Assembly (NCBI GenBank): GCA_025925615.1
Contig: JAICLN010000091.1
Span: forward strand, 1 to 11,548
Source: Actinomycetospora sp.
GTDB taxonomy: Bacteria > Actinomycetota > Actinomycetes > Mycobacteriales > Pseudonocardiaceae
Length of the DNA: 11,548 nt
Reading direction: 5' to 3'
In this document: positions 1 through 11,548 of the stretch, piece by piece
How the letters are laid out: each line of letters opens with the position of its first letter
Numbering within the stretch: position 1 is the stretch's first letter
Program-made: the position numbers and the translations under genes
The notes under the pieces: model-generated
Seen by the model: only the letters and a program-made list of their open reading frames with translations
What the model was told of the DNA's origin: nothing
Databases searched by the model: none

Positions 1-69
1 GGCGAGCACGGCGGCCCGCTGCTCGGGGTCGAGTCCCTGCTCCGGGGTCTGGCCGGGCGCCGCGGTCAC
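1..69 (-). CDS. uvrD2: UvrD-family DNA helicase, N-terminal fragment (probably UvrD2)
   Basis: Only the first 23-25 codons are present; the gene runs off the left edge. The translation contains GLDPEQRAAVLA, typical of the segment just before the Walker A motif (the Q-motif region) in superfamily 1 UvrD/PcrA helicases, which are 3'-5' ATP-dependent DNA unwinding enzymes acting in repair. No ATPase motif is inside the window, so the family call rests on this short match and on context: mycoredoxin and nudC follow, as in mycobacteria where uvrD2 is their neighbour. Two GTG codons can start the frame, at 75 and 69. A GGAG at 78-81 lies 8 nt before the GTG at 69 but only 2 nt before the one at 75, so 69 is preferred. 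The assignment to UvrD2 rather than another UvrD paralogue is inference. Confidence 0.6.
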   Translation of the reverse strand, partial: MTAAPGQTPEQGLDPEQRAAVLA

Positions 70-146
70 CGTCACCGCTCCATCGTCTCAACCCGGCCCG
101 ACGTCGTGGGGCAGGACGGTCCGGCCGGTCGCGGCCACCCCGTGAG

Positions 147-195
147 AGCGAACGGCACTCTCGCTGCGTCTCCGCGCGCGAACGAGCCGCTCGCT
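147..195. repeat. Paired palindromic repeat (two 19-bp units 30 bp apart)
   Basis: Two imperfect inverted-repeat units, at 147-165 and 177-195, each run from a GCGAA-type arm to a TCGCT arm, separated by an 11-nt spacer containing TCTCCGCG. The same architecture (19 + 11 + 19 nt) recurs at 4869-4917, with about 35 of 49 positions identical by hand alignment. It lies between the helicase start and the 3' end of the AraC-type gene, both on the minus strand, so it could form a stem-loop downstream of the regulator. No other content is evident in the 70-205 gap. Confidence 0.6.
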
Positions 196-205
196 CGGGG
201 ACGGT

Positions 206-916
206 CTACCCCGACCGGGCCCGCCGGCGGAACTGCCCGGGCGTCTCGCCGGCCAGCCGGGTGAACTGGCGGGTGAAGGCCGGCTGGTCGTAGAACCCGC
301 ACGCAACGGCGATCTCCGCCAGCGGCCGGTCGGTATCGGTGAGCAGCGCCCGGGCGCGGTCGATGCGGGTGCGCAGCACGAACTGGGTAGGGGCGAGCCC
401 GAACACGGCCCGCATCCGCCGCTCGAGCGCCGACAGCGACAGCCCCGCGGTCGTCGCCATCTCCTCCACCCGCGGCGGATTGTCGACGCGGGACTCCACG
501 AGCTCCACGACCCGGGACAGCGCCGGCATCGCCGGGTCGGCGGCGTCCGCCGAGCGCAGGTCCTCGGACACGGTGACGACGCCGGCGGTGGTCCCGTCCG
601 CGCCCGGCACCGGGATCTTCGTCGTGAGGTACCAGCCCGGCTGCCCGCCCTCGCGGCGGATGAGCTCGAGCTCGTGGCGCAGCGGACGCCCGTCGGCGAG
701 CACCCGGGCGTCCTGCTCCTCGTAGCGCTCGGCCAGCGCCGCGACGAACAGCTCGCCCGCGCGGCGACCGATCACCCCGGCCCGCGTGCGCTGGTTGGTG
801 CGCCGCACGAACGCGTCGTTGACCTCCGTGTACCGCCCCTCGGCGTCCTTGGCGCAGAACATCACGCCGGTCAGCTCGGCGAAGAGCGCGATCAGGGCGG
901 GGGCGGGCACGTCCAC
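206..916 (-). CDS. PAS-domain AraC-family transcriptional regulator
   Basis: A 236-residue DNA-binding regulator. Residues about 7-117 look like a PAS sensor domain: a G-R-Y-T-E-V-N-D-A-F stretch near 27-36, a G-W-Y-L-T-T-K-I-P strand near 94-102, and a final G-V-V-T-V-S-E-D strand. Residues about 132-233 form an AraC-type double helix-turn-helix. The first helix pair is near 150-171 (E-E-M-A-T-T-A-G-L-S). The second is near 198-220, followed by the conserved family ending G-E-T-P-G-Q-F-R-R. The GTG start at 916 has a strong GGAGGAG ribosome site at 922-928, 5 nt away. It is divergent from putA across 139 nt, which suggests it controls putA and perhaps itself. The PAS ligand cannot be read from sequence, and a proline-related signal is only inferred from position. 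Family confidence is high; target confidence is moderate. Confidence 0.88.
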   Translation of the reverse strand: MDVPAPALIALFAELTGVMFCAKDAEGRYTEVNDAFVRRTNQRTRAGVIGRRAGELFVAALAERYEEQDARVLADGRPLRHELELIRREGGQPGWYLTTKIPVPGADGTTAGVVTVSEDLRSADAADPAMPALSRVVELVESRVDNPPRVEEMATTAGLSLSALERRMRAVFGLAPTQFVLRTRIDRARALLTDTDRPLAEIAVACGFYDQPAFTRQFTRLAGETPGQFRRRARSG

Positions 917-931
917 GTCGTCTCCTCCCGA

Positions 932-989
932 GCCCGGCGAGGGGAGGATCCGGTCGCTCTACCCGCACGAGGGCTCCCCTCGCGCCGGG
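932..989. promoter_or_regulatory. Inverted repeat in the araC-putA divergent promoter region
   Basis: The 917-1055 gap holds an inverted repeat. The left arm, near 932-946, reads CCCGGCG then AGGGGAG; the right arm, 974-989, reads CTCCCCT, two extra bases (CG), then CGCCGGG. It gives two 7-bp blocks with a 2-nt bulge around a spacer of about 27 nt. It could be an operator for the AraC-type regulator or an RNA hairpin in a leader. A TACAAG at 1026-1031 resembles a -10 box for putA, but no convincing -35 lies 16-18 nt upstream. The inverted repeat is seen in sequence; its function is inference. Confidence 0.4.
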
Positions 990-1055
990 GGTTGGTGTCC
1001 CGCCCCGGCCGAGGAGCGGGAACGGTACAAGACCCGCGCGCCGGAGCGGCGCACG

Positions 1056-4000
1056 ATGGAGCGCATGACCGAGCAGGTGATCGCCCCGATCGCGGAGATC
1101 GACGAGCCGATGGTGGACCGGGCGGTCGCCCGCGCGGCCCGGTGGAGCGAGGTGAGCGCGGGCGGGCACGACACCGCCACCCGCCGCCTGGCCTCCCTGG
1201 TGCACGACCCCGACGGCGTCGAGTTCGCCCTGCGCTTCGTCGACCGCGTCGCCCGTCCCGACGACGACGGCGTCGCGGCCCGCGAGCTCGCGCGCCTCGC
1301 CGGGCGGGGCGCGACGCTGCCCGGGTTCGCGAACGTGGTGGACCGGACGATGCTGCGCACCGGGGCCGTGCTCGCGCCCCGGGCGCCGCGGGTGGTCGTC
1401 CCCCTCGCGCGGCGCCGGCTCAAGCAGCTCGTCGGGCACCTGGTCGTGGACGCGTCGGGCCGCAGCCTCCGCCGTCACCTCGCGGACGCGCGCGCCCGGG
1501 GCCGGCGCCTCAACCTCAACCTGCTCGGCGAGGCCGTCCTCGGCGAGGCCGAGGCCGACCGCCGCTTCGAGCGCACCCTCGCGCTGATCCGCCGCCCGGA
1601 CGTCGACTACGTCTCGGTGAAGGCCTCCGCGGTAGCGAGCCAGCTCGTCCCGTGGGACCTCGAGGGCAGCCGCGACCGGCTCGTCCGCCGCCTCACCCCG
1701 CTGTTCGAGACCGCCCGCGACGAGGACGTCTTCATCAACCTGGACATGGAGGAGTACAAGGACCTCGACCTCACGCTGGCGCTGTTCACCACGCTGCTCG
1801 ACGCGCCGTCGCTGCGCGGGTACTCCGCCGGCATCGTGCTGCAGGCCTATCTGCCGGACTCGGTGGCGGCCCTCGAGCAGGTCGCGCGGTTCGCCCGACG
1901 CCGGGTCGACGCCGGCGGCGCGCCGGTGAAGGTCCGGCTGGTCAAGGGCGCGAACCTCGCCATGGAGCGGGTGGACGCCGCCCTGCACGACTGGCCGCAG
2001 GCGCCCTACGCCACCAAGGCCGAGGTCGACGCCAACTACGTCCGGCTCCTCGACCGAGCACTGCGTCCCGAGCTGGCCGACGCGCTGCGGGTCGGCGTCG
2101 CGAGCCACCACCTGCACCACGTGGCGCTGGCCGTCGAGCTGGCCGCCGCGCGCGGGGTCGAGCACCAGATGGACGTCGAGATGCTCCAGGGGATGGCCCC
2201 GGCGCAGGCCGAGGCGGTGGCCGCGGACCTGCGGGGCAGCGGCGGACGCGAAGCGGAGCGGAGCCGGACCATCGAGTCCAACCTGGTGCTCTACACGCCG
2301 GTCGTGCACGCCGAGGACTTCGACGCCGCGGTGAGCTACCTGGTCCGGCGGCTCGAGGAGAACGCCGGGCACGAGAACTACCTGTACGCGATGTTCTCCG
2401 CCGACGGCCCGGCCAGCTACCTCGACCGGTTCCGCGCCTCGGTCCGCGACCGCGACACCGTCGTGGACCAGCCCCGCCGCACCCAGGACCGGTCGGCCGA
2501 GCGGTCAGAAGAGTCGCGTTCCGGACACTCGACGTCCCGAAACCGTCGTTCGTCAACGGGCGACCCCGAATTCCGCAACGAGCCCGACACCGACCCCTCG
2601 CTGCCTGCGAACCGGAACTGGGCCCGGCGGGCCGTCTCCGCCACACCGGCCGTCGTCCGGGAACCCGAGCTGACCGACCCGGCCGCCGTCGACGTCGTCG
2701 TGGACCGCGCCGCCGCCTCGTCGTGGCGCGACACCGCACCGGACGAGCGCGCCCGGCTGCTCCGCGAGGCCGCGCGGTCGCTGGCCGGCGCCCGCACCGA
2801 GCTGCTGAGCGTGATGGTCCACGAGGCCGGCAAGACGGTCGCCGAGGCCGACCCGGAGATCTCCGAGGCGATCGACTTCGCCGCGTACTACGCCGACCGG
2901 GCCGCAGAGCTGCCGGGAGACGGAGCGCAGCGGAGCTCGACCCATCGGACGCCGTCGACGAGGTTCACCCCGGCCCGCGTCGTCGTCGTGACCCCGCCGT
3001 GGAACTTCCCCGTCGCGATCCCGCTCGGCGGCTGTCTGGCCGCCCTCGCGGCCGGGGCCGCCGTCGTGATCAAGCCGGCGCCGCAGGTGCGGGCGTGCGC
3101 GGAGGTCGGGGTCGCGGCGCTGCTCCGCGCGGGCATCCCCGCCGACGCGCTGCAGCTCGTGCACACCGACGAGGGCGCGGCCGGCCAGCGGCTGATCACG
3201 CACCCGGCGGTGGAGCGCGTCGTGCTGACCGGCGCGAGCGAGACGGCGGCGCTGTTCCGGTCGTGGCGCCCGGACCTGCCGCTGATCGCCGAGACGTCGG
3301 GCAAGAACGCGCTCGTGATCACCCCCGCCGCCGACCCCGACCTCGCCGTCGCCGACCTCGTCCGCTCCGCGTTCGGGCACGCCGGCCAGAAGTGCTCGGC
3401 GGCCTCGCTGGCGATCCTCGTGGGGTCGATGGGCGACCCGCGGACCCGGGTCGGGAAGCGGTTCCGCCGCCAGCTCGTCGACGCGGTGACGACGCTGCGG
3501 GTGGGTCACGGCAGCGACCTCGGGACGACGATGGGCCCGCTGGTCGGGGACCTGTCGGAGAAGCTGGAGCGGGGGCTGACGCGGCTCGACGACGGCGAGT
3601 CGTGGCTGGTCGAGCCGCGACACGTCGACGGGGCGGTCTGGACGCCCGGGGTGCGCGACGGCGTGGCGCCCGGCTCGTGGTTCCACCGCACCGAGTGCTT
3701 CGGGCCGGTGCTGGGGCTGATGACGGCGGGGTCGCTGGACGAGGCGATCGAGCTCCAGAACGCCACCGGGTTCGGGCTGACCGGCGGGCTGCACTCGCTG
3801 GACGCCGACGAGATCGAGCACTGGAGCACGTACGTCGAGGTCGGCAACGCCTACGTCAACCGTCACATCACCGGAGCGATCGTGCAGCGACAGTCGTTCG
3901 GGGGCTGGAAGGGCTCCGTGGTCGGGCCGGGCGCGAAGCCGGGCGGGCCGAACTACGTCGCGCAGTTCGGGACGTGGAGCGATCCCGTAGAGCTCCCCGC

Positions 4001-4490
4001 CGCTCCCCTGGGCCGGGCGGCGGCGGACCTGCTCGCCGCCGTCGCGTCGTCGGTGTCCGCCGAGGACCTGACCTGGCTGCGAGCGGCCGCGGGCTCTGAC
4101 GCGGCGGCGTGGCGGGACGAGTTCGCGCCCGAGCACGACCCGACGGGGATCGCCGCCGAGGCCAACGTCTTCCGGTACCGGCCGCTGCCGGCCCTGCGGC
4201 TGGTCGTCGGGGAGGACGCGGCGCAGCGGGACGTGCTGCGGGTCCGACTGGCCGCGGCGTGCGCCGGGGTTCCGGTGGACGAGGTGGGTCCCGACGTGGA
4301 GCCGGCGCCGGGTGAGCGGCTGCGGACGGTGGGGACGGTGGCGGAGGGTCTGCGGCGCGCGGCTGCGGAGGTCGGGGCCTCGCTGGTGGACGCCCCGGTG
4401 CTCGCGGACGGGCGGCGGGAGATGCTCACGGTGCTGCGCGAGCAGGCGATCAGTGTGACCCGTCACCGGTTCGGTCACGTGGAAGCCTGA
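1056..4490 (+). CDS. putA: Bifunctional proline dehydrogenase / L-glutamate gamma-semialdehyde dehydrogenase (PutA)
   Basis: A 1144-residue enzyme that oxidises proline to pyrroline-5-carboxylate using FAD, then oxidises the derived glutamate semialdehyde to glutamate using NAD+. The N-terminal half is the proline dehydrogenase barrel: VSVKAS with K189, the R-L-V-K-G-A-N strand (R294, K297), and L-V-L-Y-T-P-V-V near the end of the barrel. The C-terminal half is an aldehyde dehydrogenase: T-P-P-W-N-F from T646, the general base in A-E-T-S-G-K-N (E746), and the nucleophile in G-Q-K-C-S (C780). A C-terminal region of about 150 residues follows. The ATG at 1056 has GGAG at 1043-1046; an ATG three codons later is an alternative. 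There is no N-terminal ribbon-helix-helix repressor domain as in E. coli PutA, so regulation must come from elsewhere, perhaps the divergent AraC-type protein. Oddly, three low-similarity insertions interrupt otherwise conserved regions at residues about 397-407, 480-502 and 621-635, all in frame. Confidence 0.95.
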   Translation: MERMTEQVIAPIAEIDEPMVDRAVARAARWSEVSAGGHDTATRRLASLVHDPDGVEFALRFVDRVARPDDDGVAARELARLAGRGATLPGFANVVDRTMLRTGAVLAPRAPRVVVPLARRRLKQLVGHLVVDASGRSLRRHLADARARGRRLNLNLLGEAVLGEAEADRRFERTLALIRRPDVDYVSVKASAVASQLVPWDLEGSRDRLVRRLTPLFETARDEDVFINLDMEEYKDLDLTLALFTTLLDAPSLRGYSAGIVLQAYLPDSVAALEQVARFARRRVDAGGAPVKVRLVKGANLAMERVDAALHDWPQAPYATKAEVDANYVRLLDRALRPELADALRVGVASHHLHHVALAVELAAARGVEHQMDVEMLQGMAPAQAEAVAADLRGSGGREAERSRTIESNLVLYTPVVHAEDFDAAVSYLVRRLEENAGHENYLYAMFSADGPASYLDRFRASVRDRDTVVDQPRRTQDRSAERSEESRSGHSTSRNRRSSTGDPEFRNEPDTDPSLPANRNWARRAVSATPAVVREPELTDPAAVDVVVDRAAASSWRDTAPDERARLLREAARSLAGARTELLSVMVHEAGKTVAEADPEISEAIDFAAYYADRAAELPGDGAQRSSTHRTPSTRFTPARVVVVTPPWNFPVAIPLGGCLAALAAGAAVVIKPAPQVRACAEVGVAALLRAGIPADALQLVHTDEGAAGQRLITHPAVERVVLTGASETAALFRSWRPDLPLIAETSGKNALVITPAADPDLAVADLVRSAFGHAGQKCSAASLAILVGSMGDPRTRVGKRFRRQLVDAVTTLRVGHGSDLGTTMGPLVGDLSEKLERGLTRLDDGESWLVEPRHVDGAVWTPGVRDGVAPGSWFHRTECFGPVLGLMTAGSLDEAIELQNATGFGLTGGLHSLDADEIEHWSTYVEVGNAYVNRHITGAIVQRQSFGGWKGSVVGPGAKPGGPNYVAQFGTWSDPVELPAAPLGRAAADLLAAVASSVSAEDLTWLRAAAGSDAAAWRDEFAPEHDPTGIAAEANVFRYRPLPALRLVVGEDAAQRDVLRVRLAAACAGVPVDEVGPDVEPAPGERLRTVGTVAEGLRRAAAEVGASLVDAPVLADGRREMLTVLREQAISVTRHRFGHVEA
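2244..2270 (+). repeat. In-frame 27-bp dispersed repeat, copy A (inside putA)
   Basis: Encodes GREAERSRT (putA residues 397-405), in a loop just before the last barrel strand of the proline dehydrogenase domain, where relatives as I know them have only a short turn. It matches copy B (2916-2942) at 21 of 27 bases and copy C (8693-8719, minus strand) at 21 of 27. It is in the same reading frame as both. The divergence suggests it is the oldest copy or a sub-family. Confidence 0.55.
2504..2543 (+). repeat. Repeat-derived insertion in the putA interdomain linker
   Basis: Within the linker between the two PutA enzymes, residues about 480-502 are a Ser/Arg-rich stretch (SAERSEESRSGHSTSRNRR) including two TCA serine codons, unusual in this GC-rich gene. 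The DNA at 2504-2543 aligns with 7571-7609, the right half of the hairpin after the lrp gene, at roughly 28 of 39 positions with one gap; both share GTCAG, GTCGC, GACAC and ACGT blocks in order. I read this as a decayed or divergent copy of that element inserted in frame. The alignment is by hand and moderately convincing. Confidence 0.4.
2916..2942 (+). repeat. In-frame 27-bp dispersed repeat, copy B (inside putA)
   Basis: Encodes GDGAQRSST (putA residues 621-629) in the loop between the N-terminal helices of the aldehyde dehydrogenase domain and the T-P-P-W-N-F strand region. It is 24 of 27 bases identical to copy C in nudC, in the same orientation relative to coding and in the same frame. 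Nearby residues HRTPSTR may also belong to the insertion. Confidence 0.7.
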
Positions 4491-4515
4491 GCCGGGTGCC
4501 GGTGTTGAACGGCAC

Positions 4516-4776
4516 ATGGCGCAGATGACGATGTACACGACCGGCTGGTGCGGGTTCTGCCGGCGGCTCAAGAGCCAGCTGGACCGCGAGGGCATCGGGT
4601 ACGACGAGGTCGACATCGAGCGCACCCCGGACGCCGCCGAGATCGTCATGCAGGTCAACGGCGGCAACCGGACGGTGCCGACGGTCGTCTACCCCGACGG
4701 GTCGGCCGCGACCAACCCGAGCTTCGCCGAGGTCAAGTCGGCGCTGGCCAAGGCCGAGGCCGCGTCCGGCATCTGA
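4516..4776 (+). CDS. mrx1: Mycoredoxin / glutaredoxin-like protein
   Basis: An 86-residue thioredoxin-fold redox protein. The active site is C12-G-F-C15 after the first strand M-T-M-Y-T-T-G-W, and the cis-proline motif T-V-P is at 53-55, followed by the expected P-D-G turn. Length, the W-C-G-[FY]-C signature and the actinobacterial setting fit mycoredoxin-1, which reduces mixed disulfides between proteins and mycothiol. The ATG is 25 nt after the putA stop, so it may be read from the putA transcript. No strong ribosome site is visible, and an ATG three codons in is possible. Hairpin repeats lie directly downstream, before the convergent exporter. A plain glutaredoxin using another thiol is the alternative, less likely in this lineage. 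Confidence 0.88.
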   Translation: MAQMTMYTTGWCGFCRRLKSQLDREGIGYDEVDIERTPDAAEIVMQVNGGNRTVPTVVYPDGSAATNPSFAEVKSALAKAEAASGI

Positions 4777-4788
4777 GCCCGGCCCGGC

Positions 4789-4815
4789 TTCTGAGCGAAG
4801 GGCACCTTCGGTCGA
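4789..4815 (+). repeat. Palindromic repeat unit after mrx1
   Basis: A unit beginning TTCTGA with a CGAAGG stem (4796-4801), a 3-nt loop and a CCTTCG arm (4805-4810). It is 24 of 27 bases identical to 4864-4890, 75 bp downstream. It starts 13 nt after the mrx1 stop and may act as a weak terminator; there is no T-tract. Confidence 0.6.
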
Positions 4816-4866
4816 ATAGATTGGCGACGGGCGCCCACCGCCGGAACGGCTGGTCGGCCGAGGTTC

Positions 4867-4919
4867 TGACCGAAGGGCCCCTTCGCTCGATCTACGCGAG
4901 CGAAGGGGCCCTTCGCTCA
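4867..4919. terminator. Long stem-loop made of two palindromic repeat units; likely bidirectional terminator
   Basis: Two units, at 4868-4888 and 4898-4918, are each palindromes: the second is perfect around a single central base and the first has one mismatch. As neighbours they also form one long hairpin: 4871-4889 pairs with 4897-4915 for 19 uninterrupted base pairs around a 7-nt loop (ATCTACG), then one mismatch and three more pairs. It sits between the 3' ends of mrx1 (+) and the exporter (-), 17 nt from the exporter stop, a natural place for a two-way terminator. No T-tract is seen, common for actinobacterial terminators. It is also a member of the paired-repeat family at 147-195. Confidence 0.65.
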
Positions 4920-4935
4920 TCCCGGCACGGCTCAC

Positions 4936-6432
4936 TCAGGCTCGGGCCCGCTCCCCGACCGGTGCCGGCTCCGCCGCCCGCACGGGCCGGGCCCAGACCG
5001 CCACGACCACCGCGGCGACGAGCGCGCCCACCCCGGCCACCGTGAACACCCGGTCCAGCCCGGCCGCGAAGGCCTGGTGCACCAGCGCGGTCGTCGCGTC
5101 CCCGCTCCCGACGACCTGCGCGGCGCGCCCGCCGGCGAGCGCGTTCGCCGTCGTCGTCACCTCGGACGTCCCGGCACCCGACAGCACCGTCGCGACCCGC
5201 CCCGCGAAGATCGTCCCCAGCACGGCCAGCCCGACGGCGAGGCCCAGCTGGCGGAACGTGTTCACCGCGGCGCTGCCCACCCCGGCGCGGGCCGGCGGGA
5301 GGACCGCGAGGGTCGCCGAGACGAGGACCGGGGTCGCGAGCCCGACGCCGAGGCCCGCGACGACGAGCCCGGTCACCAGCACCCACGGGCCCGACGTCGG
5401 CGCCACCAGCGTCATCAGCAGCACCCCGGCGCCGATCAGCACCAGACCGCCGGCGATCGGGCGCGCGGGCGACCCGCCGTGCAGGAACCGGCCCGCCGAC
5501 AGCGAGACCACGAACGACGCCACGGAGAGCGGCAGCGCCACCAGGCCCGCCTGGATCGGGGAGAGGTCCAGCACCGACTGGAGCCAGATCGACACCAGCG
5601 CGAGGTGAGCGAATGCGGCAGCCTGCAGGACCGCGGCCGCGATCATGAGCGCGGTGAACGAGGGGTTGGCGAACAGCGCGAGGTCGAGCATCGGCGCGGC
5701 GCTGCGGTGCTCGACGACGACGAACGCCACGAGGGCGGCGGCCGCGAGCGCCAGGGCGACCACGGTCGCCGTCGCACCCCACCCGTCCTCCCCCGCCGCC
5801 ACCAGTCCGTAGACCAGCGCCGCCGACGCGACGGTGAACGTGGCCGCGCCGGGGACGTCGATCCGGTGCCGGCCGCCCGGGGCGGACTCGGTCACGACGG
5901 CGAGGGTGAGCGCCACGGCGACGACCGCGACAGGCAGGTTGACCAGGAAGATCGACCGCCAGCCCCACGCCTCGGTGAGCAGGCCGCCGAGCAGTGGCCC
6001 ACAGGCGGCGGCGAGGCCGTTGACCGCGCCCCACACGCCGAAGGCCGTGCCGCGCCGCCGGCCGTGGTAGGTGATGGCGATCAGGGCCGCCGTCGTCGCG
6101 AACATCGCCGCCCCGCCGACGCCCTGCACGATCCGGGCCGCGACGAGGGTCCCGACGCTCGGCGCGAGGCCGCAGGCCAGCGACGCCACCGCGAACAGCC
6201 CGAGCCCGGCGAGGTAGAGGCGCCGCCGGCCGAAGCGGTCGGCGAGGGTGCCGGTGACCATGAGCAGCGCCGCCAGCGCGAGCGCGTACCCGTCGATCAC
6301 CCACTGCAGGCCGCCGAACGACGTGCCGAGCGACGCGCCGATGGGCGGCAGGGCGACGTTCACGATCGTGACGTCGACCAGAAGCATGAAGGTGCCCAGA
6401 CAGACGGCCACCAGGGGCCACCACGGACGCAT
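4936..6432 (-). CDS. MFS drug exporter, DHA2 family (14 membrane segments)
   Basis: A 498-residue inner-membrane transporter, predicted to use the proton gradient to export small hydrophobic compounds or drugs. It starts with the DHA2 motif L-L-V-D-V-T-I-V-N-V-A-L-P near 17-29. Motif A (G-T-L-A-D-R-F-G-R-R-R) is at 61-71, an R-I-V-Q-G-V-G-G motif B at 100-107, and antiporter motif C (G-P-L-L-G-G) at 145-150, followed by W-G-W-R-S-I-F-L-V-N-L-P, typical of EmrB/QacA-like proteins. Length and hydrophobic profile fit 14 segments. The ATG at 6432 has a strong GAGGAGGAG ribosome site at 6438-6446. It is divergent from the Lrp-type regulator over 131 nt, suggesting control by that protein. Substrate cannot be told from sequence; export of an amino-acid-like compound is possible given the regulator class, but this is inference. 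Confidence 0.9.
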   Translation of the reverse strand: MRPWWPLVAVCLGTFMLLVDVTIVNVALPPIGASLGTSFGGLQWVIDGYALALAALLMVTGTLADRFGRRRLYLAGLGLFAVASLACGLAPSVGTLVAARIVQGVGGAAMFATTAALIAITYHGRRRGTAFGVWGAVNGLAAACGPLLGGLLTEAWGWRSIFLVNLPVAVVAVALTLAVVTESAPGGRHRIDVPGAATFTVASAALVYGLVAAGEDGWGATATVVALALAAAALVAFVVVEHRSAAPMLDLALFANPSFTALMIAAAVLQAAAFAHLALVSIWLQSVLDLSPIQAGLVALPLSVASFVVSLSAGRFLHGGSPARPIAGGLVLIGAGVLLMTLVAPTSGPWVLVTGLVVAGLGVGLATPVLVSATLAVLPPARAGVGSAAVNTFRQLGLAVGLAVLGTIFAGRVATVLSGAGTSEVTTTANALAGGRAAQVVGSGDATTALVHQAFAAGLDRVFTVAGVGALVAAVVVAVWARPVRAAEPAPVGERARA

Positions 6433-6488
6433 CGGTTCTCCTCCTCGGGACTGCGGTTCGCGACGACGGGGGCCGCCGGTGCCACCAT

Positions 6489-6511
6489 CGTCGACACCCG
6501 GTGCGTCGACG
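6489..6511. promoter_or_regulatory. Candidate operator between exporter and lrp genes
   Basis: CGTCGAC and its reverse complement GTCGACG flank a 9-nt spacer (ACCCGGTGC) in the middle of the 131-nt divergent gap. Size and symmetry fit a dimeric regulator site, and the adjacent Lrp-type protein is the obvious candidate. Such words are easy to find by chance in GC-rich DNA, so support is weak. Confidence 0.3.
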
Positions 6512-6563
6512 GACGCGTCGGGGACGTCGTGTCGGCGGGTATCGACATCCTGGAGGCAGAGCC

Positions 6564-7532
6564 GTGGTGGAATTCGACGATCTCGACCGTGGGCTGCTGC
6601 ACGCCCTCCAGGTCGACGGACGGGCCCCGTTCCGGCGGATCGCGGACGTGCTCGGGGTCTCCGACCAGACGGTGGCCCGGCGCTACGCCCGGCTGCGCTC
6701 GGGGCAGGCGCTGCGGGTGATCGGGGTCAGCGACCCGGCGGTCGTCGGCGACGACCAGTGGATGGTGCGCGCCCGCTGCGCGCCGGACGCCGCGCCCGAG
6801 ATCGCCGACGCGCTCGCCCGCCGTCCGGACACGTCGTGGATCAGCCTGAACTCGGGCGGGACCGAGGTCGCGTGCTCGCTGCGCTCGAGCGACACGGCGG
6901 CGGCCGGCGAGGTGCTGCTCGCCAAGCTCCCCCGCACCCCGCGGGTGCTCGACGTCAGCGCGCACCAGGTGCTGCACGTGTTCTACGGCGGGGCGAACGA
7001 GCCCTTCACCAAGATCGGGCCGCTCGACGACGGCCAGGTGGCGCAGCTGAGCGAGCACCTGCCCGACCCGGCGCCCGCCCCGCGGCTCGACGACGTCGAC
7101 CGCCGGATCCTGCGGTCGCTGCGCGCCGACGGGCGGGCCGCGGTGGAGGACCTGGCGCGGGAGTGCGGGACGTCGGCGTCGACGGTGCGGCGCCGCCTGC
7201 ACGAGCTGCGCGCCGGCGGGCTGCTCTACCTCGACGTCGACGTGGCGCCCGACTCCCACGAGCTGCCGATGCGCACGATGCTCTACCTGTCCGTGCTCCC
7301 CGCCGACCTCGACGCGGCCGGGCGGGCGCTCGCGGCCCACCCGGAGGTCCCGTTCGCGGCGGCGACGACGGGGCGCACGAACGTCTACGCGAGCGTCGCC
7401 AGTCCCGACGCGCCGGCGCTCTACCGGTACCTGACGACGCGCGTGGCGGCGCTGCCGGGCGTGCAGGGCATCGAGACCGCGCCGGTCATCCGCACGGTCA
7501 AGGCGGCGGGCACGCACTATCCGGCGCGTTGA
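6564..7532 (+). CDS. Tandem-domain Lrp/AsnC-family transcriptional regulator
   Basis: A 322-residue regulator made of two Lrp/AsnC units in one chain. Unit 1 has an N-terminal helix-turn-helix at about 4-50 (D-D-L-D-R-G-L-L-H-A-L-Q, then V-S-D-Q-T-V-A-R-R) and a ligand-type domain to about 140. Unit 2 has a second helix-turn-helix at about 175-222 (D-D-V-D-R-R-I-L-R-S-L, then S-A-S-T-V-R-R-R) and a second effector domain to about 312. Ordinary family members have one unit of about 150 residues; the double form is familiar in Actinobacteria. The frame is open upstream to 6501, but GTG at 6564 is chosen because GGAGG lies 7 nt before it (6552-6556) and the domain begins there. It is divergent from the exporter, so a local regulator of export, perhaps sensing an amino acid or related ligand, is inferred. 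Confidence 0.87.
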   Translation: MVEFDDLDRGLLHALQVDGRAPFRRIADVLGVSDQTVARRYARLRSGQALRVIGVSDPAVVGDDQWMVRARCAPDAAPEIADALARRPDTSWISLNSGGTEVACSLRSSDTAAAGEVLLAKLPRTPRVLDVSAHQVLHVFYGGANEPFTKIGPLDDGQVAQLSEHLPDPAPAPRLDDVDRRILRSLRADGRAAVEDLARECGTSASTVRRRLHELRAGGLLYLDVDVAPDSHELPMRTMLYLSVLPADLDAAGRALAAHPEVPFAAATTGRTNVYASVASPDAPALYRYLTTRVAALPGVQGIETAPVIRTVKAAGTHYPAR

Positions 7533-7542
7533 GGCCTGGCCG

Positions 7543-7621
7543 CGACGGTGTGGATTTCCGGACGTCCAGTGTCAGCGGTGTCGCATCGCTGACACTCAAC
7601 GTCTGAAAAGCCACACCGTCG
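7543..7621. terminator. Large inverted repeat between convergent lrp and nudC; likely bidirectional terminator
   Basis: Arms 7543-7577 and 7587-7621 (35 nt each) pair at 30 of 35 positions around a 9-nt loop (GTGTCGCAT). The outer 11 pairs (CGACGGTGTGG) and inner 10 pairs (AGTGTCAGCG) are perfect. It fills most of the 98-nt gap between the stop of the Lrp gene and the stop of nudC, so either transcript would fold it. The arm includes TTTTC/GAAAA on one side. Its right half resembles an insertion in putA (2504-2543), suggesting a dispersed element recruited as a terminator. Confidence 0.65.
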
Positions 7622-7630
7622 ACCCGCCCA

Positions 7631-8740
7631 CTAGCCCGCGGCGGCCCAGGCCTCCAACATCGCCCGGGCGATCGACACCCCGCCGGGCAGGATGAGGTCG
7701 CGGTCCTCGCCGGCCTCGAACGAGGTCCCGCCGACCCCCCGCGCACCGGTCAGCCGGGTCACCGGGCTGTCGCCCTCGCGGGTCATCCAGTCGCCGGCCG
7801 CCAGGGCCTCGATGAGCTCCTCGCGGGTCACCCAGCGGGCGTTCTCGATCTCGCCCTGCTGCAGCTTCATCGGCGCGTCCGGGTCCGCGACCGCCGAGAA
7901 CCCGATCATCAGCGAGCGCGGGAACGGCCACGGCTGCGACCCGAGGTAGGTGATCGTCGAGACGGTCACCCCGACCTCCTCGGCGCACTCCCGCGCCACG
8001 CACGCCTCCAGCGACTCGCCCGCCTCGACGAACCCGGCCAGCACGCTGTAGCGGCCCTCCGGCCAGATCGGCTGGCGGGCCAGCAGCACACGGTCGGCGC
8101 CGTCGTGCACCAGGCAGATCATCGACGGGTCGGTGCGCGGGTACTCCTCGTGGTGGTGGGCCTCGCAGAGCTGCGCCCACCCGGCCTTGATCGCGTGCAT
8201 CGGGGAGCCGTCGCGGGAGCAGAACCGCGCCCGGTCGTGCCAGGACAGCAGCGCCACCGCCGTCGTCAGCAGCCCGGCCGAGCGGGCGTCGAGGTCGCCG
8301 CCGGACACCCGCAGGTCCCGCCACAGCTCGAGCGCGCTGAAGCCCGAGCCGGCGTCGTTCGACTCGTCGGGGTCGGGCACCCGCACGCCCCAGTACGCGA
8401 CGCCGCCGTCCTCGCCGAGCAGCACCGCGCCGTCGGGGACCGTCTCGCCGAAGTCGCGCGCCGGGGAGTCGATCAACCGCAGCGACCCGTCGTCGGCCTC
8501 CTCGACCGGGGTGCGCCCGCGCGGGTCGACGCGCACCACCCGGGCCCGCGGCCAGATCGACGCGACGTGGTCGGGGTCGCCGCGCACCTGCTCGCGCCGG
8601 TCCACCGTCGAGCGCGAGAGGCGGGGCAGGGAGTCCAGGTGGAACGCGGCCCGCAGGTCCGGCCCGGAGGTCGCCGAACCGGCTGCGCCGTTGGTCGAGC
8701 TCCGCGTCGCTTCGTCTCCGACCGCTCTCGTGGTGCTCAC
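7631..8740 (-). CDS. nudC: NudC-type NADH diphosphatase (Nudix hydrolase)
   Basis: A 369-residue Nudix enzyme expected to cut NADH/NAD+ to the nicotinamide mononucleotide and AMP and, in known relatives, to remove NAD caps from RNA. An N-terminal NudC-like domain covers about 33-165. A zinc-ribbon-like region follows (C174, C192), then the catalytic Nudix domain with a full box: G236, E242, R250-E251, E254-E255, G257. The NudC signature S-Q-P-W-P-F-P is at 268-274 and separates it from other Nudix families. The usual four-cysteine ribbon is degraded: the second and fourth ligand positions look like D177 and H195. The GTG start overlaps the upstream protease stop by 4 nt (GTGA), implying translational coupling; its own ribosome site is weak. 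Residues about 8-20 are an in-frame repeat insertion, giving an unusually long N-terminus. Confidence 0.93.
   Translation of the reverse strand: MSTTRAVGDEATRSSTNGAAGSATSGPDLRAAFHLDSLPRLSRSTVDRREQVRGDPDHVASIWPRARVVRVDPRGRTPVEEADDGSLRLIDSPARDFGETVPDGAVLLGEDGGVAYWGVRVPDPDESNDAGSGFSALELWRDLRVSGGDLDARSAGLLTTAVALLSWHDRARFCSRDGSPMHAIKAGWAQLCEAHHHEEYPRTDPSMICLVHDGADRVLLARQPIWPEGRYSVLAGFVEAGESLEACVARECAEEVGVTVSTITYLGSQPWPFPRSLMIGFSAVADPDAPMKLQQGEIENARWVTREELIEALAAGDWMTREGDSPVTRLTGARGVGGTSFEAGEDRDLILPGGVSIARAMLEAWAAAG
8693..8719 (-). repeat. In-frame 27-bp dispersed repeat, copy C (inside nudC)
   Basis: Encodes GDEATRSST (nudC residues 8-16), just after the start codon and before the first recognisable domain. 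It is 24 of 27 bases identical to putA copy B and 21 of 27 to copy A, all in the same sense and frame. A related 14-nt core (13 of 14 identical, 8707-8720 against 161-174) also occurs in the intergenic repeat near the left edge. Confidence 0.7.
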
Positions 8741-10137
8741 GAACTCGATGATCCCCCGGGGACGCGGATCCCACCCAACGCGGCCAGCGAGCTCGCCGTC
8801 GTCGCCGCGTCGGTCACCACGACCCCGGTGAACCGCGCGGGCGCGAGGAACTCGGCGGCCGCGGCGGCGGCCTCCTCGGCCGTGACCGCCTCGAGGCGCT
8901 GCGGGTGCTCGCGCACCCATGCCGACGACAGCCCGACCCCGGCGAGGCCGGCGAGGGTCGATGCGAGCCCGGCCTGCGTCGTCATGGAGATCAGCAGCGA
9001 GCCGATCGCGTACCGGCGGGCCGACTCCAGCTCGGCGGCCGACGGCGGGACGACGGCGATCCGGCCCAGCTCGTAGCGCATCTCCAGGAGCGCGGCGGCG
9101 GTGACCTCGGAGGCGCAGTCGGTCTCGACGAGCAGGGCGGCGCCGTACGGGTCGAACTCCAGCGACGACGACGCGTGGTAGGTGTAGCCCTTGTCCTCGC
9201 GCAGGTTCTCGACCAGCCGCGAGGAGAAGTAGCCGCCGAACGCGAGGTTGGCCAGCTGCAGTGCCGGATAGCGCCGGTCGGTGCGCGGGATCGCGGCCGC
9301 CGAGAGCCGCAGCTGCGACTGGACCGCGCCGGGCCGGTCGACCAGCAGCAGCTCCGAGCCGTGCAGCTCCGGCAGCGGCGGCAGCAGGGCGGCCTCGCCG
9401 GGGGTGTCCCACGCCGCGAGCGAGGCGGACACGGCGGCGACCGCGTCGTCCGGGTCGAGGTCGCCCACGAGGACGAGCACCGACCCGGAGGGCACCACCA
9501 TGCGCCGGTGCAGGGCGAGCAGGTCGTCGGTCGAGACCCGGACGACCTCGGAGACCTCGGGCATCTCGCGGGTCACCGGGTGGTCGCCGTAGCGGTGGCG
9601 CTGCAGGGCGCGGCGGGCGATCACCGACGGCTGCGCGGCCGCGACCTGGATGCGCTCGGCGAGCCGCTCCCGCTCGCGCTCGACCTCGTCGGCGGGGTAG
9701 GTCGCGGAGGTCAGTACGTCGGAGATCACGTCGAGCAGGGTCGGGAGGCCCTCGGCCAGGGCGTGCCCGGAGGCGGCGAGCCGCTCCGGGTCGACCGAGA
9801 ACCCGAGCTCGCCGCCGACACCCGCCAGGTCGTCGTCGAGAGAGACGCGGCTGCGCCGCGTGGTGCCCGACAGCGTTGTCGAGGCGAGCACCTCGGCGAC
9901 GGCGGGGTGGCGGGGGTCGGGGTCGGAGAACGGGATTCGCAGGCGGACCTCGACCATCGGGACGGCCGGGCGGCGCACCGCGATGACCCGGAGGCCGGTC
10001 GGCAGGACGACGTCCTTCTCGTCCGGCGCCGGGACCTGCGGCTGGGGGCGCAGCGGCGGCAGGGCGCGCGGCCCGCTCGGCGTGCGGCCGATCTCCTCGG
10101 CGGAACGTCGGGTGGTGGCGACGGTGGGGGCGCTCAT
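8737..10137 (-). CDS. M16-family peptidase-like protein, non-catalytic subunit
   Basis: A 466-residue protein with the two-lobed M16 fold (L-P-T-G-L-R-V-I-A-V near 45-54; second lobe from about 262). It lacks the zinc-binding HXXEH motif: the aligned region near 77-85 reads H-P-A-V-A-E-V-L-A. It keeps the second-lobe signature G-G-Y-F-S-S-R-L-V-E-N-L-R-E-D-K-G-Y-T-Y (301-320), whose Arg and Tyr (R313, Y318 or Y320) help bind substrate in two-subunit bacterial M16 proteases. The expected role is partner of the catalytic subunit encoded immediately upstream, forming a cytosolic peptide-degrading chamber. The ATG at 10137 overlaps the previous stop (ATGA) and has GGAG 7 nt upstream (10145-10148). 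No signal peptide is visible. A Pro/Arg-rich tail of about 40 residues precedes the domain. Substrate unknown. Confidence 0.87.
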   Translation of the reverse strand: MSAPTVATTRRSAEEIGRTPSGPRALPPLRPQPQVPAPDEKDVVLPTGLRVIAVRRPAVPMVEVRLRIPFSDPDPRHPAVAEVLASTTLSGTTRRSRVSLDDDLAGVGGELGFSVDPERLAASGHALAEGLPTLLDVISDVLTSATYPADEVERERERLAERIQVAAAQPSVIARRALQRHRYGDHPVTREMPEVSEVVRVSTDDLLALHRRMVVPSGSVLVLVGDLDPDDAVAAVSASLAAWDTPGEAALLPPLPELHGSELLLVDRPGAVQSQLRLSAAAIPRTDRRYPALQLANLAFGGYFSSRLVENLREDKGYTYHASSSLEFDPYGAALLVETDCASEVTAAALLEMRYELGRIAVVPPSAAELESARRYAIGSLLISMTTQAGLASTLAGLAGVGLSSAWVREHPQRLEAVTAEEAAAAAAEFLAPARFTGVVVTDAATTASSLAALGGIRVPGGSSSS

Positions 10138-11483
10138 GCGTCGGCTCCGGGGGTGAGGACGAGCAGGGCGCGGGCATCGGGGCGCAACGCGGCGGCCGCG
10201 GCGGCGACGGCCTCGGGGCTGACCGCGGCGATCGCGCCCGGGAGCTCGTCGGAGAGCTCGGCCCGCCCGTGCACGAGCTCCGCGGAGCCGAGGGCGAGCA
10301 TGCGGTTCATCAGCCGGTCGTGCTCGCGGTGCAGCGCCGCCGACCAGCGTGCGGTGACCCGGCGCAGCTCCTCCGGGTCCGGGCCCTCGGCGGCGAGCTT
10401 CCCCAGCTCGTCGTCGACCGCGTCCACGATGCGGCGCGGCTCGACGCCGTCGGGATGGACCGCGGTGATCGTGAAGGTGTCCGGGTCGCGGGCGTCCAGC
10501 GGTGCGCCCATGAGCCCGGCCGAGGCGGAGAGGTCGGTGACGAGTCCGTCGCCGTAGACCAGCCGCTGGGTCAGGCGCGCGGCCTCGCCGTCGGTGAGCA
10601 GGCTCGCGAGCACGGCGTGGGCGAGGTAGCCGGACAGGTCGGTGCCCGGGTCGGGCATCCGGTAGCCCAGGGCCAGCGCCGGCAGCGGGGCATGCGCGTC
10701 GACGACCGAGGAGACCCGCTCGCCGTCGGGACCCGGCTCCCCGAAGGACGGACGTGCGGGCACCGCCCGCGCCGGGATGTCGCCGAAGTGCCGCTCGACC
10801 AGCGTCGCCGCGTCGGAGATCTCGAAATCCCCGACGACGGTGAGCACGGCGTTGCCCGGCGCGTAGTAGGCGTCGAAGAACGCCGCGGCGTCGTCGAGCG
10901 AGGAGCGCTCGAGGTCGGTGAAGTCGCCGTAGCCGTTGTGGGCGTTCGCGAACGTCGAGTAGAGCACCGGCGGGAGCAGGATCCAGGGGAAGCCGCCGTA
11001 GGGCCGGTTGAGGACGTTGAGGCGGATCTCCTCCTTCACCACGTCGATCTGGTTGGCGAGGTTCTCAGGCGTCAGCTTCGGCGCGCGGAGCCGGTCGGCC
11101 TCGAGGAAGAGGCCCCGCTCCAGCGCGGCGGCGGGGAGGATCTCGAAGTAGTCGGTGTAGTCCTGGTGCGTCGACCCGTTGAACACCCCGCCCGAGCCCT
11201 GCACGTGGCGGAAGTGGGCGAGCTTCTCCAGGCTCTCCGAGCCCTGGAACATCAGGTGCTCGAAGAGGTGGGCGAAGCCGGTGCGTCCCTCGGGCTCGCT
11301 GCGGAAGCCGACGTCGACGTGTACGGCCACCCCGACGACGGGGTTGGACCGGTCGGGCGCGAGGACGACGCGCAGCCCGTTGTCGAGGGTGAGGCGGTGA
11401 CGTGCCGCCGTCCTCGTGTTCCCGGGGGAGCTGGGGGGCGCCGGAGCGGCACCGGGGATCGGGGGGAGAGCGGCCGTACTCAC
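10134..11483 (-). CDS. M16-family zinc metalloprotease, catalytic subunit
   Basis: A 449-residue insulinase/pitrilysin-family protease. The zinc motif HXXEH is intact as H72-L-F-E-H76, with E75 the catalytic base. The third zinc ligand is likely E152 in V-V-K-E-E-I-R-L-N, 76 residues after H76 as is usual. N-terminal L-D-N-G-L-R-V-V-L-A and G-F-R-S-E-P-E-G-R-T-G-F-A complete the active-site domain; an inactive second lobe follows from about 240. A Pro/Ala-rich stretch occupies residues 1-28 and shows no signal peptide, so a cytosolic role with the downstream non-catalytic M16 protein is likely. First gene of a coupled operon with that partner and nudC. Translation starts at a GTG with no spaced ribosome site, and a promoter box sits 6 nt upstream, pointing to a leaderless message. 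Substrate cannot be inferred. Confidence 0.92.
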   Translation of the reverse strand: MSTAALPPIPGAAPAPPSSPGNTRTAARHRLTLDNGLRVVLAPDRSNPVVGVAVHVDVGFRSEPEGRTGFAHLFEHLMFQGSESLEKLAHFRHVQGSGGVFNGSTHQDYTDYFEILPAAALERGLFLEADRLRAPKLTPENLANQIDVVKEEIRLNVLNRPYGGFPWILLPPVLYSTFANAHNGYGDFTDLERSSLDDAAAFFDAYYAPGNAVLTVVGDFEISDAATLVERHFGDIPARAVPARPSFGEPGPDGERVSSVVDAHAPLPALALGYRMPDPGTDLSGYLAHAVLASLLTDGEAARLTQRLVYGDGLVTDLSASAGLMGAPLDARDPDTFTITAVHPDGVEPRRIVDAVDDELGKLAAEGPDPEELRRVTARWSAALHREHDRLMNRMLALGSAELVHGRAELSDELPGAIAAVSPEAVAAAAAALRPDARALLVLTPGADA

Positions 11484-11489
11484 CCCTCG

Positions 11490-11518
11490 ACCCTAACGGC
11501 GACGGCGAGTGGCGTCCG
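11490..11518 (-). promoter_or_regulatory. Candidate leaderless promoter of the M16-nudC operon
   Basis: On the minus strand a TAGGGT -10 box (TANNNT class, 11490-11495) ends 6 nt before the GTG start codon at 11483, so transcription could begin on or next to the start codon. A CGGACG hexamer at 11513-11518, 17 nt farther upstream, keeps the GAC part of an actinobacterial -35. GAGGGG touches the start codon directly, too close to serve as a ribosome site. I saw nothing further in 11519-11548. Confidence 0.45.
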
Positions 11519-11548
11519 CGCGCCGGGCGCGCGCGGCCGGGGTGGACC

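Follow-up and report, generated by a model that had tools for sequence, protein, structure and literature searches.

A 27-bp repeat inserted into unrelated genes of Actinomycetospora with a preference for one reading frame

Rickettsia palindromic elements (RPEs) are, in the available parts of two reviews, dispersed repeats that lie in frame within unrelated and often conserved genes, occur between genes as well, and have been termed selfish DNA; they are about 105-150 bp long, form a long stem-loop, and end in terminal inverted repeats (PMC10969869, PMC2229807). Palindromic amphipathic repeat coding elements (PARCELs), as far as the available part of their description goes, are palindrome-based amphipathic domains that form tandem tracts, largely in membrane proteins (PMC2996958). 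Here, we describe a 27-bp repeat that is present in three copies in a stretch of 11,548 nucleotides from Actinomycetospora sp. (GenBank assembly GCA_025925615.1, contig JAICLN010000091.1, positions 1 to 11,548; hereafter, the window), twice in putA and once in nudC, whose product an earlier reading of the sequence alone took to be a putative NAD diphosphatase (Table 1). We find that a fixed 27-bp DNA sequence has repeatedly been added at new sites, most often as 36-bp blocks, and we consider it fairly likely that the sequence is a very short, protein-coding, dispersed repeat whose spread occurs through insertion, probably as a selfish or neutral passenger.

Two subfamilies of a dispersed repeat

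The three 27-mers of the window share 21, 21, and 24 of 27 bases in pairwise comparison, and their positions, orientations, and peptides are as the sequence-only reading had given them; no fourth copy lies in the window within six mismatches of any of the three. That reading had treated them as one 27-bp repeat. They do belong to the same dispersed repeat, with the amendments that the block inserted is longer, most often 36 bp, and that two sister subfamilies exist, A (GGAGACGNAGCGNAGCGGAGCTCGACC; window copies at 2916 and 8693) and B (GGACNCGNAGCGNAGCGGAGCNGGACC; the copy at 2244). When copies are aligned, their edges are sharp and their flanks unrelated.

Among 39 subfamily A copies from the window's own genome, bases vary freely only at positions 8 (major base 0.46) and 13 (0.59), both nonsynonymous in the frame of the window copies (frame 0), and third positions are 0.90-1.00 constant. 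In this frame, A reads GDxAxRSST and B reads GRxAxRSRT or GHxAxRSWT. Since both free bases change the peptide and the third positions are nearly invariant, the spreading unit seems to be DNA rather than peptide; the pattern of conservation is the opposite of that produced by peptide selection on the spreading sequence. A palindrome or hairpin element is rejected on the folding of single copies: none of the three 27-mers, of which one was also tested as its complement, folds better than its shuffles (z 0.35 to 0.85). A tandem pair folds moderately better (z -2.58). The ends, GGAGACG and CTCGACC, are complementary over three bases at most by direct reading, and thus show no terminal inverted repeats.

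Further copies are abundant. In the genome of the window (G000; 382 contigs, 3.52 Mb, 59.8% complete), a degenerate pattern matches at 49 places with up to three mismatches, and the reversed pattern used as a control matches at 1. Across all 18 Actinomycetospora genomes, subfamily A is found at 1165 places within two mismatches, with no control match in any genome; the count per genome runs from 1 (G015) to 154 (G007), and G002, G005, and G008 have 135, 99, and 117 copies. Subfamily B is present in 17 of the 18 at up to one mismatch. At the same threshold, matches in the family are confined to 20 of 390 genomes, namely the 18 Actinomycetospora and two of another genus (one with 3 copies, the other with a single copy), and in a sample of the order to 3 of 249, the window's own genome among them. 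An exact-pattern scan of named genomes returned Actinomycetospora, Williamsia, and one Mycobacterium alone among the 80 loci listed, from at least 116 matching stretches. Phages and viral contigs gave no match and plasmids just four records with weak partial matches (E about 0.3), and we have set aside a phage or plasmid vehicle. Other repeat families were seen in the stretches L252-L291, CCCGTCGTCGGGAA with its variants and AGGAAAGCGTCGTTGC, at 4 to 8 per 200 kb.

Filled sites, empty sites, and the inserted block

Comparison of orthologues showed that the insert residues are absent from most relatives. Among the 18 genus genomes, the first PutA site and the NudC site are each filled only in that of the window and empty in all 17 others, and the second PutA site is filled in two, the window and G007 (L242). 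Because this second insert is missing from seven species whose PutA is more similar to that of the window than the PutA of G007 is, the two filled sites are likely to represent parallel insertion. Both PutA inserts are also missing from PDB 5UX5, the best PutA match in the PDB, whose source we take to be a Corynebacterium. That the repeat might be ancestral conserved protein sequence or a chance similarity is hardly credible, given the empty sites in close orthologues and in 5UX5 and the silence of the reversed-pattern control in 18 genomes; nothing was found in its favor. Neither of the two outcomes that the sequence-only reading had named as telling against it, distant orthologues with the same residues or a lack of further copies, came about.

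In nucleotide alignments, the gap at the first PutA site measures 36 bp against the two nearest relatives (L235, L236) and 39 bp against L237 and L238, the gap at the second measures 39 bp in the five relatives aligned, and that in nudC about 33 bp against one relative. A broader view comes from four syntenic 200-kb stretches that are 86 to 88% identical and carry 21 copies, with the orthologous site alignable for 16: the inserted block was most often 36 bp, and exactly so in 15 of 34 empty-site comparisons. A block of this commonest length consists of 27 constant bp and about 9 variable bp.

A few positions are filled in more than one species. An exact copy, in sense frame 2, lies at one position of IleS in Mycobacterium pinniadriaticum (L113:1417-1443) and in two genomes of a genus labeled g53, probably also Mycobacterium (L352:2456-2482 and L353:2497-2523), where it is the sole copy at up to one mismatch. 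The IleS insert is a 36-bp block, the sequence 3' of the core differs among the three, and 29 other g53 loci that were fetched (L363-L391, from 58 genomes with a match) have a 12-residue gap at the site; these copies reflect either insertion in parallel or transfer from one species to another. A source gene in Mycobacterium IleS is rejected, as relatives lack the block. Likewise, copies in the same loop of FabD in the window's own genome and in G002 (L076, L305) have different flanks, which suggests that such loops are hot spots.

Table 1. Features of the window discussed in the text
Feature	Position	Strand	Remarks
Repeat copy 1	2244..2270	+	Subfamily B; frame 0 in putA; peptide GREAERSRT
Variable portion (about 9 bp) of the block inserted with copy 1	2271..2279	+	Approximate; placement of the 9 bp is ambiguous
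Repeat copy 2	2916..2942	+	Subfamily A; frame 0 in putA; peptide GDGAQRSST
Repeat copy 3	8693..8719	-	Subfamily A; frame 0 in the N-terminal tail of nudC; peptide GDEATRSST
Host gene putA (proline dehydrogenase / pyrroline-5-carboxylate (P5C) dehydrogenase)	1065..4490	+	Open reading frame; PDB match 5UX5 PutA, E=0; orthologues in 18/18 genus genomes
Host gene nudC	7631..8740	-	Orthologues in 18/18 genus genomes; name from the sequence-only reading

The sequence-only reading expected each copy to lie in a surface loop or a tail. On this point, an AlphaFold model of PutA, built from 12 sequences, is poor (predicted local distance difference test score 51.5) and offers only a hint. The PutA inter-domain linker (window 2461-2600) differs widely among the genomes of the genus in both length and sequence and may hold other types of insert. 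In two other species, antisense subfamily B copies in this linker (L247:3385-3411 and L249:3397-3423), with a GPAPLRSxS-like peptide, mark a third PutA insertion region. Elsewhere in the window, intergenic DNA at 4871-4919 is rich in inverted repeats with GAGCGAAGGGGCCCTTCGCTC-like units, flanked by a glutaredoxin-like gene and a gene resembling major facilitator superfamily transporters, and downstream of an Lrp-like regulator, at 7561-7602, an inverted repeat around AGTGTCAGCG...CGCTGACACT is possibly a terminator (gene names in both regions were assigned by eye).

The repeat also forms tandem arrays. The first 159 copies, Williamsia included, fall into 119 arrays, 97 of them with a single copy; of the 40 intervals between neighboring copies, 26 have a spacer of 9 bp and the rest one of 12, 6, 8, or 7 bp. 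The period is thus mostly 36, and cores are mostly identical within an array, in which spacers can differ. DNA uptake sequences, known from Haemophilus and Neisseria, are about 10-12 bp long, occur in roughly a thousand copies, and originate through mutation. A DNA-level signal of this general kind, a motif for uptake, segregation, or recombination that accumulates for a function of its own and is best tolerated in one frame, would account for conservation at the DNA level with two free bases, which resembles a protein-binding site, and uptake sequences are themselves known for a frame preference. Such a signal strikes us as improbable here, where the sequence arrives as whole blocks rather than through point mutation, varies from 1 to 154 copies inside one genus, and occurs in tandem.

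For target sites and reading frames, we used a census of 185 Actinomycetospora insertion events (42 from the window's own genome, 67 from named loci, 57 from G002, and 19 from the four syntenic stretches), in which arrays were collapsed, events with identical flanks or a flank under 60 bp were dropped, the M. pinniadriaticum locus L113 was excluded, and orthologous copies of different species may be counted twice. From G002, 60 stretches were fetched, with 106 places listed against the 135 counted. Immediately before the core, G is the usual base, and C is the usual base one position further out. The 9-bp flanks on the two sides resemble each other beyond chance (z 5.8 in a class-preserving shuffle), with 13 of the 185 events matching at 7/9 or better where about 1.4 would be expected, and 9 stands out alone, as ten other flank lengths reach z 2.3 at most. 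A simple shuffle also lifts lengths 12 and 15 (z 3.3 and 3.7), signals that probably arise from codon phase. As most events, IleS among them, lack a clear duplication, we regard a target duplication of about 9 bp as degenerate and partial. Microhomology between the target and the 3' end of the element, to which IleS and PutA had seemed to point, was no more common than in distant windows when 180 events were compared, and is rejected.

These flanks also invite the idea of a transposon footprint, in which an insertion sequence that had duplicated about 9 bp of its target was excised, leaving a 27-bp scar that, together with the duplicated 9 bp, gives a frame-restoring 36 bp. Such an origin would fit the commonest insert length and the singular position of length 9, and would account for a constant, asymmetric core in any frame. 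Nevertheless, flank repeats of at least 7/9 in just 13 events sit poorly with 138 of 185 cores that have no mismatch at all, and tandem arrays that repeat one spacer are hard to account for. The only inverted pair of copies examined as possible transposon ends (G002 C27, L330) encloses ordinary genes and is rejected as such, in a search for a parent element that was not exhaustive. On balance, we regard a footprint as unlikely.

Reading frame and host genes

Genes were called with a simple, purpose-written caller in its single-round version, as the multi-round version gave mirror-frame antisense errors. By these calls, 144 of the 185 events lie inside genes and 41 outside (called coding fraction 0.932). 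The genic events divide into 89 in sense frame 0, 26 in sense frame 2, 6 in sense frame 1, and 23 antisense (9, 7, and 7 in the three frames). The sequence-only reading had put the odds of a shared frame among its three copies at about 1 in 36, an argument now superseded by the 89 of 144 genic events in frame 0. Its view that copies share frame and orientation is borne out as a bias over the 185 events, and it fails as a rule, with 55 of the 144 genic events antisense or in other frames and 41 events outside called genes; the shared frame is a strong preference without being universal. On slightly earlier counts, and with relatedness ignored, the binomial probability is about 8e-18 for 83 of 114 sense events and about 6e-29 for 83 of 143 genic events. 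A frame test that uses composition only and scored 182 events found the same clear frame on both sides in 61, of which 39 were frame 0.

Pfam domains were found in 18 of 20 interior frame-0 hosts tested (of 39), and these hosts include RsgA, MazG, acyl-CoA dehydrogenase, CTP synthase, MurC, MurG, FabD, and citrate synthase. Pfam domains are also carried by 16 of 20 antisense-called hosts tested (of 29), and the antisense insertions are for that reason taken to be real.

What, then, produces the preference? The target motif can be at most part of the cause, as a target matrix built on the events in antisense and intergenic positions leads one to expect 0.30 for sense frame 0 and about 0.49 for antisense, against 0.48 and 0.16 observed (earlier counts). 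An effect of transcription is also rejected, since most of the sense excess lies in frame 0. In terms of codon usage, the mean codon score is highest for frame 0 among all six frames and lowest for sense frame 1, in which the rare AGA occurs; this agrees with the most and least frequent sense classes, and disagrees with the antisense ones. Our reading is that, once copies have been inserted, selection favors the frame that does least harm.

Perhaps, instead, GDxAxRSST is a functional tag or motif under positive selection, whose DNA has been spread by recombination. Such selection would fit the strong excess of frame 0, also near gene ends, where other frames might be tolerated, and the substitutions of decayed copies, which fall at third positions more often in frame 0 (12 of 23) than in other copies (8 of 30). 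We nonetheless think a functional peptide quite unlikely: codons 3 and 5 vary freely, subfamily B encodes different residues, third positions are almost invariant, 96 of the 185 events are antisense, in another frame, or outside called genes, and the hosts are unrelated enzymes. The third-position substitutions are, in our view, a weak sign that resident frame-0 copies evolve as coding DNA.

A possible mechanism and the relation to known repeats

To explain a short repeat that spreads by insertion as a selfish or neutral passenger, we propose that a trans-acting activity would copy the 27-mer into sites resembling C-G|G, at times leaving a degenerate target duplication of about 9 bp. Selection would then retain mainly those insertions that are a multiple of three in length and encode a small, hydrophilic peptide with usable codons, and the retained insertions would sit at protein ends and in loops, where surviving frame-0 copies may thereafter evolve like ordinary coding DNA. 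The sequence of the element would be harmless in one frame, either by chance or by evolution. It is tempting, if rather doubtful, to go further and see in the repeat the smallest protein-coding mobile DNA so far seen: 27 bp, non-palindromic, without a transposase or terminal repeats, inserted as a 36-bp (12-codon) block by an undescribed machinery common to Actinomycetospora, Williamsia, and occasionally Mycobacterium, and adapted in length and sequence to form a harmless linker in one frame.

Several results weigh against the passenger reading. Most events, IleS included, show a degenerate target duplication or none, and when the repeat length is left free, the test gives a weak result (score of at least 4 in 21 events against 9.1; at least 5 in 5 against 3.7). 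The remaining 19 of the 34 empty-site comparisons give gaps of 15 to 45 bp (11 at 33-35 or 37-42; the rest 15, 18, 18, 27, 30, 45, and 45), which stem partly from unrelated indels. Williamsia shows no excess of frame 0 in its 17 events (4 in sense frame 0, 5 in sense frame 2, 5 intergenic, and 3 others), and the codon score alone fails to rank all frames, as antisense frames beat sense frame 2 yet are rarer. Frame-0 copies near gene ends (47 of 89 within 20 codons of one) appear too numerous for a purely neutral model, an excess that may reflect positive selection or codon-phased targeting. Finally, a mobilizer was not found among the Y1 transposases, reverse transcriptases, phages, plasmids, and viral contigs checked. 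The Y1 transposase (PF01797) occurs in none of the 18 genus genomes, by a search that was positive in 5 of 14 control genomes, and a REP-associated tyrosine transposase (RAYT; REP, repetitive extragenic palindromic sequence) is rejected as mobilizer. A reverse transcriptase is an unlikely one, as RVT_1 was detected in 4 of 18 (3 over the cut-off), including G008 with its 117 copies, and is missing from the high-copy genomes G002, G005, and G007.

Whatever copies it, the repeat amounts to a natural, large-scale insertion scan of proteins, with many independent insertions of nearly one peptide of about 12 residues and empty sites for comparison; some of the hosts are usually essential enzymes, and the insertions span species. 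The inserted peptide is a short and probably flexible linker in one reading frame of genes of soil actinobacteria. Among protein-coding interspersed repeats, it is a case with a different structure, from a high-GC actinobacterium, and it prompts one to ask how 27 bp without ends or a transposase of a known kind come to be copied.

The sequence-only reading knew of no description of this repeat, and none was found in the literature searched, which mostly left out subscription papers. With DNA uptake sequences, the repeat shares a short DNA motif, a preferred reading frame, and a place in tolerant protein regions, by what is generally known of the former, and it differs in arriving through insertion rather than mutation. 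REPs are extragenic palindromes mobilized by Y1 transposases. The Actinomycetospora repeat is similarly short, high in copy number, genome-wide, and lineage-specific; unlike REP/RAYT systems, it has no palindrome or Y1 family member (0 of 18), and 144 of 185 events are genic. Compared with miniature inverted-repeat transposable elements, its ends match as inverted repeats over no more than three bases, and with regard to a target duplication of constant length, it shows a 9-bp signal that is significant but degenerate, limited to a minority of events, and weak when length is left free.

PARCEL repeats are likewise a repeated coding module, both tandem and dispersed, with a patchy distribution across lineages in the available part of their description (PMC2996958). 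They are more distant than RPEs from the Actinomycetospora repeat, which is hydrophilic and short, stands alone in 97 of 119 arrays, and is also found in cytosolic enzymes. RPEs, reportedly with counterparts in Wolbachia, differ in structure: the Actinomycetospora repeat has a core of 27 bp, a block of most often 36 bp, arrays of mostly period 36, and no significant fold in single copies, and it resides in a high-GC actinobacterium. The parallel with Rickettsia drawn by the sequence-only reading does not extend to structure, as the 27-mer is not palindromic. In behavior, the parallel stands: the repeat lies in frame in unrelated genes, 89 of its 144 genic events are in one sense frame, and its hosts include MurC, MurG, CTP synthase, FabD, and RsgA. 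Thus, set apart by length and by the palindrome, RPEs are its nearest relatives in behavior.

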